A stretch of DNA of 40,480 nucleotides from contig JAUWIN010000012.1 of NCBI GenBank assembly GCA_030605345.1, positions 1 through 40,480 on the forward strand. Reading direction: 5' to 3'. Below, piece by piece: positions 24,526 to 35,198 of this stretch. This DNA is from Candidatus Brocadiia bacterium. GTDB lineage: Bacteria > Planctomycetota > PUPC01. The notes below the pieces were generated by a model. That model was not told the DNA's origin. It was given only the letters and a program-made list of their open reading frames with translations, and did not search any database. The position numbers and the translations under genes are program-made. The stretch's first letter is position 1, and each line of letters begins with the position of its first letter.

Positions 24526-25116
24526 CTATCCGGCGGTCTCACCGCCGGCTATTAGGTGTCTGATTTTCGCCACTGTCTCGTCCAGGTCGTCGTTAATCAC
24601 CTGGTGGTCAAAGTGCATCGTGCTTGCGGTGCCGCGTTCGCGTTCGGCGGTTTCCAATCTTCTGTAGCGGTTCTCGGGGGCTTCGGTATTGCGGCGTTCG
24701 AGCCGGGTTGCTGCGGTCTCTCGGTTGGGCACATCGAGGAAGATGAACATTCCTTCCGGGTACAATTTTCGGAGCTGTGCCGCGCCCTGAACGTCGATCT
24801 CGACCAGCACGGTGCGGCCCTCTTCAAGAGCCTTCTGGAGCGGCTGGCGCGGGGTGCCATACAGGTTGCCGTTGTACTCGGCATATTCGGCGAACCGACC
24901 GTCGCGGACGCGGTGGAGGAACTCGTCCCGGCCGACAAAGTGGTATTGGACTCCGTCCTGTTCGCCGGGCCTCTTGTTGCGGGTGGTCGCCGAGATGCTG
25001 AGCGTGATGTGAGGGTCCGACCGCAGCCGGTCGCACACGGTTGTTTTGCCGGAACCGGACGGGCCGGACACAACGACGATTTTGCCTGTTTGCGGGCCTT
25101 CGCTGCGTTCACTCAT
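24526..25116 (-). CDS. gmk: Guanylate kinase
   Basis: Phosphorylates GMP to GDP with ATP. The 196 residues carry the P-loop GPSGSGKTT (18-26), SISATTRNKRPGEQDGVQYHFV (GMP-binding, with Arg), AEYAEYNGNLYGTP and the lid with LERRNTEAPENRYRRLETAERE. The start overlaps the yicC stop by ATGA, so translation is coupled. The order yicC-gmk-rpoZ is widely conserved. Confidence 0.97.
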   Translation of the reverse strand: MSERSEGPQTGKIVVVSGPSGSGKTTVCDRLRSDPHITLSISATTRNKRPGEQDGVQYHFVGRDEFLHRVRDGRFAEYAEYNGNLYGTPRQPLQKALEEGRTVLVEIDVQGAAQLRKLYPEGMFIFLDVPNRETAATRLERRNTEAPENRYRRLETAERERGTASTMHFDHQVINDDLDETVAKIRHLIAGGETAG

Positions 25117-25991
25117 TCGAGATTGAGCACCTGTTCACGTATTTTATCCACTTCGCCGCGAAGGTCGATAATCAATTTGGTCATGGTCGTGTCGGCTGCT
25201 TTCGACACCATGGTGTTTGCTTCGCGGTCCATCTCCTGCCCGATGAATTCCAGTTTTCGGCCGGAGCGCTCTTCGGCGAGGGCCTCGGTGCAGTGGTCGA
25301 GGTGGGCCTTCATTCGGCAGGTTTCCTCGCTGATGTCCGAGCGTTCGCTGAGCATGATAATTTCGCGTGCCACTGAGCCGGGCTCGAGCGTCTCACCGGC
25401 TTTTTCCATCAAGGCTGAGACCCGTTGGGTGAGCCGTTTGCGGCGCTCTTCGCCGGTTTTTGGAACGCGCGCCTCGATCCGCCGGAGCAATTTGCGCGTC
25501 CGCGTGCAGCACTGCCTAAGCGCCGTGGTGAGGGCCTTCCCCTCAGATGTCTTCATCCGGACGGCTTTTTCGAGAGCTGCGGTGACGGCGGGCCTGATCT
25601 TCCGCCAAACATGGTTCGCGGCGCGATTGGACACTGAGCCGACCTCCATCGCACCAGGGAGCATTGCAACCCTGTCGGGGTGTATCTCGGCGGAAAGGCC
25701 AAGTTTTTTGCTGAGTTTCCCGAGCTGTTCCGCGTAACTGGCGAAAGCCCGGTCGTTGAAGGCCGCCTGGCCGGCGCCGGCCCAATCCAAGCGGAGGGAT
25801 ACATCGACCGTGCCACGCGTCATGTACTTCGGGACCAACGACCTGATGCGCTCGACCACTACGGGCATGTCCGCGCGCAGAGTGACCTTTGTTTTCAGAT
25901 GCTTGCCGTTCACGCTGTGAACTGTGACGTCGGCCGACATTTCGTCGTCGGAGAAACTGGCCTGTCCGAACCCGGTCATGCTGGTGGGCAA
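25113..25991 (-). CDS. yicC: YicC family protein, probable endoribonuclease
   Basis: A 292-residue YicC/YloC protein. The hallmark N terminus SMTGFGQ is followed by a middle helical region and the C-terminal signature LEFIGQEMDREANTMVSKAADTTMTKLIIDLRGEVDKIREQVLNLE. Members have been reported to degrade or regulate small RNAs. The TTG at 25991 is taken as start because AGGAG precedes it by 5 nt, and the four residues before MTGFGQ match the usual spacing of family starts. The internal ATG four codons on is too far from that site. Coupled to gmk. Confidence 0.94.
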   Translation of the reverse strand: MPTSMTGFGQASFSDDEMSADVTVHSVNGKHLKTKVTLRADMPVVVERIRSLVPKYMTRGTVDVSLRLDWAGAGQAAFNDRAFASYAEQLGKLSKKLGLSAEIHPDRVAMLPGAMEVGSVSNRAANHVWRKIRPAVTAALEKAVRMKTSEGKALTTALRQCCTRTRKLLRRIEARVPKTGEERRKRLTQRVSALMEKAGETLEPGSVAREIIMLSERSDISEETCRMKAHLDHCTEALAEERSGRKLEFIGQEMDREANTMVSKAADTTMTKLIIDLRGEVDKIREQVLNLE

Positions 25992-26398: not shown

Positions 26399-27157
26399 CT
26401 AGGCCTCCCTTGCCTTGATAATCGCAATAAATGATTCGGCGTCCAGGCTGGCACCGCCCACGAGCGCGCCGTCGATGTCTTCCTGGTGCAGAAGGTCGGC
26501 CGCGTTTTTGGGCTTGACGCTGCCGCCGTATTGTATGCGCACGCGAGCGGCGACGTTGCTGCCCGCCTTCCGTGTCAAGACCGATCGGATGAATGCGTGG
26601 GCCTGTTGCGCCTGGTCGGGCGTTGCGGTTTCGCCCGTTCCGATGGCCCAGATCGGTTCGTAGGCCAGGACGACTTTTTCCACTTCTTCTGGCGAGAGCC
26701 CGCTGAGAGCAGCTTCCACCTGGCCCATGAGCACTTCTTCCGTGCTGCCGGCCCGGCGTTGTTCGAGCGTCTCGCCGACGCACACCAGGGGGTTCAGCCG
26801 GCAGCCGAGTGCGGCCTTTAGTTTGGCGTTCACCCCTTCGTCAGTCTCGCCGAAGAGCTGTCTGCGCTCCGAGTGGCCGATGATGACGTGTGTCGCGCCT
26901 ACGTCGAGGATCATCGGGGCCGAAATCTCGCCGGTGAACGCTCCTTTGGGTTCGGGGTGCATGTTTTGCGCCCCGACAATAACCCTGCTTCCTTTGAGCA
27001 TTTGGGCGACCGGCGCGAGGTATGCGTAGGGCGGGAACACGCCGATGTCTGCGTCGGTGATGTCGTCGGCCTCCGCCTTGAGCCTGTTCACCAGTTCGAG
27101 GGCGCCGGCCAGGTCCTTGTTCATTTTCCAGTTACCTGCGATGAAGGAACGTCTCAC
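26399..27157 (-). CDS. tpiA: Triosephosphate isomerase
   Basis: Interconverts dihydroxyacetone phosphate and glyceraldehyde 3-phosphate. The 252 residues are full length with Lys11 (GNWKMNK), the electrophile His95 (IIGHSERR), the catalytic base Glu167 (VLAYEPIWAIGTG, including the mobile loop 6) and the phosphate motif QYGGSVKPKNA. A GGAGG-type site precedes the ATG. It sits 21 bp after pheA and is immediately followed by secG. Confidence 0.98.
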   Translation of the reverse strand: MRRSFIAGNWKMNKDLAGALELVNRLKAEADDITDADIGVFPPYAYLAPVAQMLKGSRVIVGAQNMHPEPKGAFTGEISAPMILDVGATHVIIGHSERRQLFGETDEGVNAKLKAALGCRLNPLVCVGETLEQRRAGSTEEVLMGQVEAALSGLSPEEVEKVVLAYEPIWAIGTGETATPDQAQQAHAFIRSVLTRKAGSNVAARVRIQYGGSVKPKNAADLLHQEDIDGALVGGASLDAESFIAIIKAREA

Positions 27158-27178: not shown

Positions 27179-28240
27179 TCAATCGGCTTTCGGGAAGGAC
27201 CCAAGTATCTTGAAAAAGCTGCACAGTTTTTCGCTTTCCGCCAATCCGGCGACGACCGAGCTGTCCTCGCGATGCCCTTCGAGGTCGAGGAAGAAGAAAT
27301 ACTCCCACGGTTTGTCGCGCGATGGCCGCGGGTACAGGTAGGTCATGTTGAGCCCGTGTTCCTTGAGAACGTTCAGCAGTTTCCACAGGGCCCCGGACTC
27401 GTGTTTGACGGAGCAGAGGACGGAGGTTTTATCGCAGCCGGTACGGGCCGGTTTATCTGCTCCGATGACCAGGAATCGGGTCACGTTTTTTTCGAAGTCC
27501 TCGATGTGGCGGTGGATGACCTTGAGGCCGTAGATTGCGGCGGCCATTTCATGTGCCAGAATGGCGGTGTCCGGGCGCTCCGCCGCCTCCGCCGCGGCGC
27601 GGGCCGTGCTCGTGGTTTCGACCAACTCTGCGTCCGGCAGATGCTCCGCCAGCCAGGAACGGCACTGGGCGAATGCTATCGGCTTCGAGCAGACTCGCCT
27701 GACGCCTGAGAGTTCGCCTTGGCCCATAAGGGTGAGATGTATGGGGAGCACTTCCTCGGACACGATGTTGAGTTCGCTGGTGATGAACATGTCAAGCGTT
27801 TCGCGGACCGCGCCCTCGGAGGAGTTTTCGATGGGCACTACCCCGCAGTGTGCTCGGCCGGTCTCGACGGCGGCGAAAACAGAACGAATGTCGCGGCCGG
27901 GAACATACTCCGCACCGTGGCCAAATATATCGCGGGCAGCGGCGTGGGTAAAGGTTGCTTCCGGCCCGAGGTAGGCGACGCGGATCGGCTCCTCGAGGGC
28001 CCGACAGCCGGAGACGATCTCACGGAAGATACTGCGGATGGTTTCGTTGGAAAGCGGGCCGGTGTTGAGCTCCCGCAGACGCTTATAGATTTCTTTCTCG
28101 CGGGTGGGGACGAATGTCTCGTCCGCCGCGCCTGCTTTGCTCTGGCCTATCTTCGCGGCCAGACGTGCGCGGTCGGAGAGAAGTTCCAGGAGCCGCCGGT
28201 CTATCTCGTCGATGCTGCGGCGCCATTCGCCTATGGACAT
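27179..28240 (-). CDS. pheA: Bifunctional chorismate mutase/prephenate dehydratase (P-protein)
   Basis: Converts chorismate through prephenate to phenylpyruvate for phenylalanine synthesis. The 353 residues comprise an AroQ-type chorismate mutase (about 1-85, RRSIDEIDRRLLELLSDRARLAAKIGQSK) and prephenate dehydratase (about 87-270, YLGPEATFTHAAA, VPIENSSEGAVRETLD and the catalytic NVTRFLVIG). A C-terminal ACT domain follows (about 280-353, HESGALWKLLNVLKEHGLNMTYLYPRPSRDKPWEYFFFLDLEGH) that should confer feedback control by phenylalanine. It is the first gene of the nine-gene operon, behind a near-consensus promoter; I see no leader peptide or T-box. Confidence 0.97.
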   Translation of the reverse strand: MSIGEWRRSIDEIDRRLLELLSDRARLAAKIGQSKAGAADETFVPTREKEIYKRLRELNTGPLSNETIRSIFREIVSGCRALEEPIRVAYLGPEATFTHAAARDIFGHGAEYVPGRDIRSVFAAVETGRAHCGVVPIENSSEGAVRETLDMFITSELNIVSEEVLPIHLTLMGQGELSGVRRVCSKPIAFAQCRSWLAEHLPDAELVETTSTARAAAEAAERPDTAILAHEMAAAIYGLKVIHRHIEDFEKNVTRFLVIGADKPARTGCDKTSVLCSVKHESGALWKLLNVLKEHGLNMTYLYPRPSRDKPWEYFFFLDLEGHREDSSVVAGLAESEKLCSFFKILGSFPKAD

Positions 28241-31649: not shown

Positions 31650-33641
31650 GTGCCGGAGGAGAGAGAAGAACGTGGTTTGGCGCTGCGGGAGAAACTGGGC
31701 GGTCTAATAGGGGTCAAGGCCAAGATTCCGGTCCGCGACAATTATATGCTGAGCATCATTTACACCCCCGGGGTGGCGGAGCCGTGCAACGAGATCGCGC
31801 GTGACGGCGGCCTTTCATACAAATACACCTGGCGCGGTAACGCCGTGGCGCTGGTCGGAGCCGGGCTCCCGTCCTTGCCACGGCTCGAATCAATGGCTGG
31901 GATGCTCAAGTTGCTGGCGGGCATTGACGCAGTGCCGCTGGTTGTTGCGGCCCGCGACTCCATCTGCACGGCCGAGGTGATTCGTCTGATCGCTCCGACG
32001 TTCGGCGCCGTCTGGCTGGCAGCGTTGGAGCCGCGGGATACGGGCAAGACGATTGAGGCGCTCTCCGACCTCGAAATCCCCGTTATCCGGCCGCCGCGTG
32101 AGGGGGAGGGCTGCCTCGGTGAGCCATCGGTATACCCGGGCCTGCTGCGGGCTATGCTCGACCTCAGATTGAAGCGCCTGGACGAGCGTATTGTCGCCGA
32201 AGCGGTGGCCGCCGGCGCGGGCGCGGGACTCTCGTTTTGCTCCGCGCCCCGCGTGGCGAGGGCAGTTGCACGCAAGGCTATCGACCTGGGCCTCTCGCAA
32301 CACACAGTAACGCCCGAGGCAGTTGAGGCGCGGTTGGCGGGGTACCTGGAGACCGGCAGGCTGCGGCCGTTTGTCGAGCCCGCAGACTGGCTGACTGCGG
32401 AGTCCCCGCGTGAGACTGCCCTGCGTCTGCACGCCAGCCTTGCCGGGACGCTTGAGATGAAGCCGAAGGTCGAGCCGCACGACCCGGAAAGGGTGCTGTC
32501 GGTGTTCGACAGCGGTGATGCCGCCGCAGCAGCAATATCGGATTCGCCCGAGCGCGCCAGGAAGTTGACGTGCAAGGCCAACACAGTTGCGGTGGTGACA
32601 GACGGCACCGCAGTTTTGGGCTTGGGTGACATCGGTGCAGCGGCTGGCCTGCCGGTGATGCTCGGTAAATGCGTCCTGTTCAAATGTTTCGCAGGCTGTA
32701 ACGCGGTCCCCATCTGCATAGATTCAAGGGACCCAAAAGAGATTGCCGACACGGTAGAGGCGGTTGCACCGTCCTTCGGCGGGATCAACCTCGAGGATAT
32801 CTCCGCGCCCAGGTGCTTTGAAATCGAGGACCAGTTGAAGCGGCGGCTGGATATCTTCGTTTTCCACGACGACCAGCACGGGACTGCGGTGGTGACCCTC
32901 GCTGGCCTGCTCAGCGCGGCCAGGCTGTGCGGACGCGGTTTGGACGAACTGACCGTTACATTCAACGGCGCAGGGGCGGCGGGCATCGCGGTCACAAGAC
33001 TTCTGCTCGCCGCAGGTGTGCGAGATGTGATACTTTGCGACCGCGCCGGCCCGATTTACGAAGGCCGGACGAAGAACATGAACCGGGCGAAGGAGGAAAT
33101 CGCCGCGTTCACAAACCGTGACCGTGTCAAAGGCACCCTCGCAGACGCGGTGAAAGGTCGGGACGTGTTCGTCGGCCTTTCGGTCGGCGGTGTTCTGACC
33201 GGCGAGATGATACGGACGATGGCGAAGGCCCCCATCATCTTCGCCATGGCAAATCCGGTGCCGGAGATCACGCCGGCGGAGGCGTATGCCGCGGGCGCGG
33301 TGGCGGTTGCAACCGGGCGGGCGGACTTCCCCAACCAGATCAACAACTGCCTCGGGTTCCCAGGCATCTTCAGGGGCGCCCTGGACGTGCGTGCGAAGTC
33401 CATAAATGATAAGATGAAGATGGCAGCAGCCGACGCAATCGCAGGGCTGGTTGGAGAGGGCGAACTAAGGCCGGATCACTTTATGCCAGACGCGATGGAC
33501 CTCCGAGTTCCCCCGGCGGTTGCCAGGGCGACTGCGGCGGCGGCGCTGGAGACAGGTGAGGCCCGCGTCAAGGCCGACCCCGCCGAAATCGCCGCTCGCA
33601 CCAAATGGTCCCTTTATTCAGGAGGGTCCAACGGAGGGTGA
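31650..33641 (+). CDS. NAD(P)-dependent malic enzyme with an internal degenerate duplication
   Basis: Oxidative decarboxylation of malate to pyruvate is expected. The 663 residues are much longer than the usual 390-440. Residues 1-60 are a normal start with the catalytic Tyr38 (IIYTPGVAEPC). Residues 62-215 are a degenerate copy that has lost the metal ligands. A complete core resumes at 306: VAVVTDGTAVLGLGDIG, the catalytic Lys340 in LPVMLGK, GGINLEDISAPRCFEIE and FHDDQHGTAVV (metal), NGAGAAGIAV (NAD(P)) and FAMANPVPEI. It does not have a phosphotransacetylase tail. The GTG at 31650 has a GGAGG site. It is monocistronic behind its own promoter. Confidence 0.92.
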   Translation: MPEEREERGLALREKLGGLIGVKAKIPVRDNYMLSIIYTPGVAEPCNEIARDGGLSYKYTWRGNAVALVGAGLPSLPRLESMAGMLKLLAGIDAVPLVVAARDSICTAEVIRLIAPTFGAVWLAALEPRDTGKTIEALSDLEIPVIRPPREGEGCLGEPSVYPGLLRAMLDLRLKRLDERIVAEAVAAGAGAGLSFCSAPRVARAVARKAIDLGLSQHTVTPEAVEARLAGYLETGRLRPFVEPADWLTAESPRETALRLHASLAGTLEMKPKVEPHDPERVLSVFDSGDAAAAAISDSPERARKLTCKANTVAVVTDGTAVLGLGDIGAAAGLPVMLGKCVLFKCFAGCNAVPICIDSRDPKEIADTVEAVAPSFGGINLEDISAPRCFEIEDQLKRRLDIFVFHDDQHGTAVVTLAGLLSAARLCGRGLDELTVTFNGAGAAGIAVTRLLLAAGVRDVILCDRAGPIYEGRTKNMNRAKEEIAAFTNRDRVKGTLADAVKGRDVFVGLSVGGVLTGEMIRTMAKAPIIFAMANPVPEITPAEAYAAGAVAVATGRADFPNQINNCLGFPGIFRGALDVRAKSINDKMKMAAADAIAGLVGEGELRPDHFMPDAMDLRVPPAVARATAAAALETGEARVKADPAEIAARTKWSLYSGGSNGG

Positions 33642-34052: not shown

Positions 34053-35198
34053 ATGAAGATTATAGCAGACAGCAACATCCCGTTCGCGAAGGAAGCCTTC
34101 TGTGGGATCGGCGAAGTAGAGACGGTGAAGGCAGCCGAACTTTCGCCCGAGCGGCTTCGTGACTGCGACATCCTTCTTTGCCGGTCCACCCGCAGGATTG
34201 GCGCCGAACTGCTCGAGGGCACAAATGTCCGTTTCGTCGCTACGGCCACCATCGGCACTGACCACTTCGATTTTGATTACCTCCAACGCCGAGGCATCAG
34301 GTTCGCCAGCGCCCCCGGCTGCAATGCAAATTCGGTATCCGAATACGTCACGTCGGCGCTGCTGGTATTGGCGGAGCAGAAGGAGCGGCGGCTGCGCCAG
34401 ATGACGCTCGGTGTGGTAGGAGTCGGCAACGTCGGCGGCCGCGTGGTGAAAAAGGCTGAAGCACTGGGGATGAACGTCCTCCAGAACGACCCGCCTCTCC
34501 GGTGGTTGGCCTCCGGTCCGGCTAAGGAGCGGTTCAGGCCGATCGAGGAACTGATGGTCGCTGACGTGATCACTTTCCACGTCCCGCTGACGCGGCAGGG
34601 GCCGGATGCCACATACCACATGGTCAGTGATGCGTTCCTCGAGCAGGTGAAGCCCGGCGCCATTCTGATTAATTCGTCGCGCGGCGCAGTGGCCGAAACC
34701 GGCGCCCTTCATCGGGCCATCGACAGCGGCAGGCTGGCGGCCGCCGTGCTCGACGTTTGGGAGAACGAACCGCTCATCGACACCGACCTCCTGGCGAAGG
34801 TCGCCATAGGCACGCCGCACATCGCAGGGCATTCCTTCGACGGCAAGGTGGACGGCACCAGGATGGTGTATGAGGCCGTGTGTGACTTTCTGGGGCTGCA
34901 GCCCGGCTGGGACCCCCGCACGGTTTTGCCGCCGCCGGATGTCCCCAGGATCAGTCTCGACGCCCTCAGGCGAGACCACGAAGACGTGATACGCGAGGCT
35001 GTGCTCACCCTGTATGACCTCCGGCGCGACGACGCCGAACTGCGCAAGACCCCACACGGCGAGGCACGCGGCGAATACTTCAGTTCGCTCAGGCGCAACT
35101 ACTGGCGCCGGCGCGCCTTCCATAATACCGTGATTGACGTTGCCGGGGGCTCATCAGAACTTCGCGCAAGGCTCGCCGGCCTTGGCTTCCGGCTGTAA
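34053..35198 (+). CDS. pdxB: Erythronate-4-phosphate dehydrogenase
   Basis: Second step of the DXP-dependent pyridoxal 5'-phosphate route, oxidising 4-phosphoerythronate. The 381 residues comprise an N-terminal MKIIADSNIPFAKEAFCGIGEV typical of PdxB, and ATIGTDHFDFDYLQRRGIRFASAPGCNANSVSEYV. The Rossmann motif VGVGNVGGRV (near 120) is followed by the catalytic Arg (NSSRGAVAE), Glu (DVWENEP) and His (PHIAGHSFDGK). A C-terminal PdxB-specific dimerisation domain of about 90 residues completes it. The length and these extras separate it from serA or ghrB. No clear ribosome binding site. PLP supply fits the downstream PLP enzyme alanine racemase, but linkage is not shown. Confidence 0.95.
   Translation: MKIIADSNIPFAKEAFCGIGEVETVKAAELSPERLRDCDILLCRSTRRIGAELLEGTNVRFVATATIGTDHFDFDYLQRRGIRFASAPGCNANSVSEYVTSALLVLAEQKERRLRQMTLGVVGVGNVGGRVVKKAEALGMNVLQNDPPLRWLASGPAKERFRPIEELMVADVITFHVPLTRQGPDATYHMVSDAFLEQVKPGAILINSSRGAVAETGALHRAIDSGRLAAAVLDVWENEPLIDTDLLAKVAIGTPHIAGHSFDGKVDGTRMVYEAVCDFLGLQPGWDPRTVLPPPDVPRISLDALRRDHEDVIREAVLTLYDLRRDDAELRKTPHGEARGEYFSSLRRNYWRRRAFHNTVIDVAGGSSELRARLAGLGFRL

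Follow-up and report, generated by a model that had tools for sequence, protein, structure and literature searches.

A tandem malic enzyme from Planctomycetota with catalytic residues divided between two fused copies

The window analysed here, a stretch of 40,480 nucleotides, is contig C5 of a 2.28 Mb Planctomycetota genome in 141 contigs. At 31650-33641 on the plus strand, where the preliminary description had already placed it, lies a 663-codon open reading frame with a GTG start, the sole malic enzyme gene found in this genome. Its neighbours encode TilS, a 4-phosphoerythronate dehydrogenase-like protein, a TsaB-like protein and an alanine racemase, while the corresponding gene of a second genome (G002) lies beside those for rubrerythrin and URO-D. 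Since the neighbours differ, the operon gives no functional clue, and a conserved operon was discarded as a guide to function. The adjoining 4-phosphoerythronate dehydrogenase-like gene (34053-35198, plus strand; vitamin B6 pathway), which carries a C-terminal DUF3410, is ordinary, as is a gene for a bifunctional chorismate mutase/prephenate dehydratase with an ACT domain (27179-28240, minus strand), adjoined by a triosephosphate isomerase gene (26399-27157, minus strand). A 393-residue open reading frame at 24556-25737 (plus strand) has no Pfam match at 1e-4. The features of the malic enzyme gene, which has tandem relatives in five other genomes, are as follows.

31650-33641, plus strand: whole gene of the tandem (pseudo-dimeric) malic enzyme, 663 residues
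31671-32357, plus strand: copy 1 (residues ~8-236), an N-domain fused straight to the C-terminal helices with the NAD domain deleted (blastp, Smith-Waterman, hmmsearch, Foldseek)
31761-31787, plus strand: copy-1 catalytic Tyr arm, Y38-TPGVAEPC-46, with Y38 aligned to MaeB Y52
31893-31895, plus strand: Met82, at the copy-1 position of the lost catalytic Lys (residue table)
32097-32123, plus strand: junction where copy 1 misses the NAD domain (residues ~150-158; profile gap, and low pLDDT at 151-156)
32121-32357, plus strand: copy-1 C-terminal helices (residues 158-236), matching copy-2 residues 567-658 (alignment, profile, model)
32406-33569, plus strand: copy 2 (residues ~253-640), a full malic enzyme core (phmmer to 5cee, E 5e-117; Foldseek)
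32505-32507, plus strand: Phe286, at the copy-2 position of the lost catalytic Tyr (residue table)
32667-32669, plus strand: Lys340 of copy 2, general acid/base, aligned with MaeB K107 (6zn4 alignment) and invariant in all six tandem proteins
32793-32798, plus strand: Glu382-Asp383 of the LEDI motif, E382 aligned with MaeB E149 (residue table, 6zn4 alignment)
32868-32873, plus strand: Asp407-Asp408 of the FHDDQHG motif, D407 aligned with MaeB D174 (residue table, 6zn4 alignment)
32880-33506, plus strand: the single NAD-binding domain, PF03949 (Pfam)

Pfam finds the malic enzyme N-domain (PF00390) of the 663-residue protein in three stretches and the NAD domain Malic_M (PF03949) once, both above their curated cut-offs (97.7 bits against 23.1, and 85.3 against 23.5). 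The Pfam search gave no match to a PTA domain, and the protein ends about 25 residues past the malic core; because the PTA domain is missing, a hybrid PTA-type (MaeB) enzyme was ruled out. Judged by its domains and residues the protein is a malic enzyme, though its architecture sets it apart from the ordinary small type, in which each subunit has a single N-domain and a single NAD domain and the same copy holds both Tyr and Lys. Here the N-domain is present twice and the NAD domain once, and Tyr and Lys sit in different copies.

The gene consists of two head-to-tail copies derived from a small bacterial malic enzyme. In a blastp comparison of residues 1-270 with residues 271-663, 58-123 align with 305-381 (E = 6e-8) and, in a second separate block, 149-193 align with 561-604 (E = 2e-5), and Smith-Waterman alignment of the two halves gives Z values of 11-13 against 500 shuffles. 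The resemblance of residues 62-150 to 308-407, pointed out in the preliminary description, holds up, scoring 79 where no shuffle exceeds 46. A profile of ordinary malic enzymes (47 sequences, mostly planctomycete; length 411) matches copy 1 in all six tandem proteins by hmmsearch (E 4e-31 to 3e-41). For f1, the window's family, this match covers profile positions ~5-161 and then ~327-409, leaving the NAD domain (162-325) out of copy 1 altogether; in the second family (f46) the C-terminal block of the match is weak. Searched against solved structures, the profile of copy 1 hits malic enzymes only, and in 1ww8 and 5cee it recovers both blocks. The repeat starts near residue 8, and not at residue 62 as first described, because the Tyr38 arm is a piece of copy 1 and has its counterpart in an N-terminal arm of copy 2 (residues 253-306), in which the Tyr has become Phe286. 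This decayed arm makes the protein a tandem repeat rather than a core interrupted by an insert; the earlier picture of an N-terminal catalytic segment cut off from its core by some 245 inserted residues has to be given up, and a module inserted between Tyr and core was ruled out on the same ground.

The two copies have lost complementary parts of the active site. The arm Tyr is present in all 47 ordinary enzymes and in all six copies 1, where it sits in an invariant YTPGVAEPC, and in none of the six copies 2, which have Phe at this position in the three f1 members (the window's included) and Ala in the three f46 members. The EGK lysine and the LED and HDD metal motifs are intact in every copy 2 (6/6) and in no copy 1 (0/6), bearing out the reported loss of LEDI, FHDDQHG and the NAD domain from copy 1; the copy-1 Lys position is occupied by M, Y and Y in f1 and by E in all three f46 proteins. 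Ordinary enzymes have 71 positions with conservation of 95% or more; of these, 61-65 are retained in copies 2 and 18-22 in copies 1. A structure described for the small/MaeB-type malic enzyme has its active-site Tyr (MaeB Y52) supplied by the partner subunit (PMC7902834). A gap-free alignment to 6zn4, in which published numbers and chain positions differ by a constant offset of 11, maps Y52, K107, E149 and D174 to Y38, K340, E382 and D407. One chain therefore holds one full catalytic set, Y38 from copy 1 and K340, E382, D383 and D407/D408 from copy 2, divided exactly at the subunit boundary of the ancestral dimer. Read from the residues, one site of that dimer would be complete, with Tyr from copy 1 and the rest from copy 2, and the other would be lost on both sides, copy 2 lacking the Tyr and copy 1 lacking the Lys, the metal ligands and the NAD domain.

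In an AlphaFold2 model of the full chain, run on an alignment of the six proteins, pLDDT is 85.8 and pTM 0.88, values at which the position of each half relative to the other is a confident prediction. By Foldseek, copy 2 superposes on 5cee at a TM-score of 0.95. The copy-1 model alone gives 42 matches at E <= 0.001, malic enzymes only, with a best TM-score of 0.67 by query length; a different fold for this part, which the preliminary description had named as evidence against its reading, was thus not what the model gave. The Tyr arm (residues 21-50) has block pLDDT values of 60-87 in the full chain and 28-51 in copy 1 alone, that is, it is predicted to be ordered in the full chain, at moderate confidence, and disordered in the lone copy. 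Such predicted disorder would fit an arm that is swapped and packs against the other half.

The search for the same architecture elsewhere, which had been suggested along with the original description, led to six tandem proteins in two Planctomycetota families. Full-length relatives with 61-63% identity come from two further genomes of f1, and others with 40-43% identity from three f46 genomes, which belong to another small Planctomycetota class. Among 391 genomes drawn from the phylum plus the window's, the tandem form is found in only six, and every genome of the two families has a single tandem gene without any further match to malic enzyme. In two other classes, represented by 29 and 398 genomes, a search confined to matches above the score range of ordinary enzymes found none. 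A scan of a genome collection with two patterns, which are specific to the window's family so that the result does not speak for other phyla, returned only two Planctomycetota records (the MAGs CSSed10_192R1 and B1Sed10_114) and ordinary archaeal enzymes. Six other genomes of the window's class (G003-G008), some of them of 7-9 Mb, have no malic enzyme match at E <= 0.001 (0/6), and within this class the tandem form seems to be the only malic enzyme. In another family, f36, several genomes (e.g. G196, G293 and G346) carry at least two malic enzyme genes on separate contigs, and some f36 enzymes are the top scorers among ordinary enzymes against the tandem profile.

Purifying selection acts on both copies. 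By the Nei-Gojobori method, dN/dS in three sequence pairs, the third with high dS, is 0.07, 0.21 and 0.17 for the copy-1 Tyr arm, 0.29, 0.46 and 0.44 for the decayed copy-2 arm, and 0.08, 0.15 and 0.13 for copy 2 outside its arm. Selection is complementary, the constrained arm being the one predicted to work, that of copy 1. In f1 the copy-1 body shows rapid evolution (dN/dS 0.52 between the window and G002, a rough value since dS is near saturation).

These observations bear on whether the gene is sound and on how often it arose. The many conserved residues lost from copy 1 might indicate a decaying or artefactual gene (a misassembly, a pseudogene or a frameshift fusion), but open frames of 650-770 residues in six genomes of two families, the purifying selection in both copies and a tree that groups all copies 1, which misassembly could not produce, make this hardly conceivable; misassembly and pseudogene were ruled out by the six intact tandem proteins together with the selection on them. 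That the two families lie in different classes and have replaced the copy-2 Tyr differently, by Phe and by Ala, could suggest that each gained the architecture by a separate duplication. In a mixture-model tree, however, copies 1 form one clade (support 100/99) and copies 2 another (93/82), and trees that force copy 1 and copy 2 together within each family are rejected (AU p = 0.001 and 0.003), so that independent duplications were set aside as very improbable. A single duplication before the split of the two families is therefore supported, with the caveat of long copy-1 branches, and the different replacements place the divergence of the residue at the lost-Tyr position after that split. Tree support for copy 1 and copy 2 as each other's closest relatives is only 43.

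The protein is very likely a fused pseudo-dimer of a small (5CEE/MaeB-type) malic enzyme with one working site, in which copy 1 gives Tyr38 to copy 2. An ancestral small malic enzyme gene would have been duplicated head to tail and then fused, and the halves would have been free to specialise because in the ancestral dimer the catalytic Tyr of each site was donated by the opposite chain. Copy 1 would then have become a Tyr donor and structural partner, losing the Lys, the metal ligands and the NAD domain, and copy 2 the catalytic core (Lys340, Glu382, Asp407/408 and the NAD site), whose own Tyr would be dispensable because the site that it formerly completed is dead. On this basis we infer that Tyr38 would reach the copy-2 active site within one chain and that the protein would be active as a malic enzyme with one site per chain. 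Two observations count against this reading, the moderate predicted confidence of the Tyr arm and the rapid evolution of the copy-1 body in f1.

Two other arrangements have to be weighed against this intramolecular one. Copy 1, having no catalytic core of its own, could be a regulatory or oligomerisation module (for ligand sensing or higher oligomers), with copy 2 either self-sufficient or paired with copy 2 of another chain, and there are other enzymes in which a duplication was followed by the conversion of one half into a regulator. This is quite unlikely, given that no part of copy 1 is better conserved than its Tyr arm and that all six copies 2 lack the Tyr, so a dimer of two copies 2 would have no catalytic Tyr. 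The suggestion in the preliminary description that this segment is a regulatory or oligomerisation module was half right: copy 1 is most likely a fused partner subunit supplying the Tyr, because the Tyr of small/MaeB-type enzymes comes from the other chain (PMC7902834), and a regulatory role has no specific support. Alternatively, copy 1 of one chain might complete copy 2 of another, in a homodimer of 663-residue chains with two sites. Small malic enzymes are domain-swapped between chains (PMC7902834), and the single-chain AlphaFold model is compatible with such an exchange; but the single chain is already predicted to be confident and compact with its arm ordered, and duplication and fusion make an exchange between chains unnecessary, which leaves this arrangement unlikely.

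Literature searches, which covered papers readable without subscription, turned up no pseudodimeric malic enzyme and, in the leading results of a broader search, no malic enzyme duplicated in this manner. The tandem proteins probably represent an undescribed malic enzyme class, so far from two small Planctomycetota classes: an obligate domain-swapped homodimer fused into a single-site chain with its catalytic residues split and the Tyr donor tethered, possibly a monomer free of subunit cooperativity. In a fused shared-site dimer each half may lose what the other supplies, and with both losses complete in 6/6 proteins this would be a clean natural case of subfunctionalisation within an active site. 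The swapped-Tyr mechanism of small malic enzymes becomes directly testable in one chain, and single sites of the tethered dimer can be mutated without symmetry.

The nearest homologs are the small NAD(P) malic enzymes of bacteria and archaea (5CEE, 2A9F, 1WW8/2DVM, 1VL6), to which copy 2 is 44-46% identical with structural alignment over the full chain; they have the same catalytic Lys and metal ligands as copy 2 and share the N-domain and Tyr arm with copy 1. Their subunit is a single copy of ~40 kDa, whereas the tandem protein has both halves in one chain, with one NAD domain lost and the catalytic residues divided. Hybrid MaeB (6ZN4, 6ZNG, 9KRW) has a malic domain with the catalytic Y52 swapped from the partner monomer (PMC7902834), but it carries a PTA domain, while the tandem protein has its extra part at the N-terminus, in the form of another malic enzyme copy. 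Eukaryotic-type malic enzymes (human ME2, pigeon 1GQ2) catalyse the same reaction with a homologous core but are far more distant (TM-score ~0.5); a single chain provides their Tyr together with the remainder of the site, and no description of an internal duplication in them was found in the literature covered. As an event, the closest precedent is monomeric NADP isocitrate dehydrogenase (Yasutake et al. 2002, Structure 10:1637, as cited in PMC5979607), described as a case of protein monomerisation by domain duplication, in which a shared-site dimer became a single chain with one site lost. The tandem malic enzyme corresponds to it in having a duplicate of the dimer partner within the chain and a single intact catalytic set; the enzyme families are unrelated, so the likeness is an analogy of event and not homology, and the route taken by monomeric isocitrate dehydrogenase would thereby be seen in a central-carbon enzyme.
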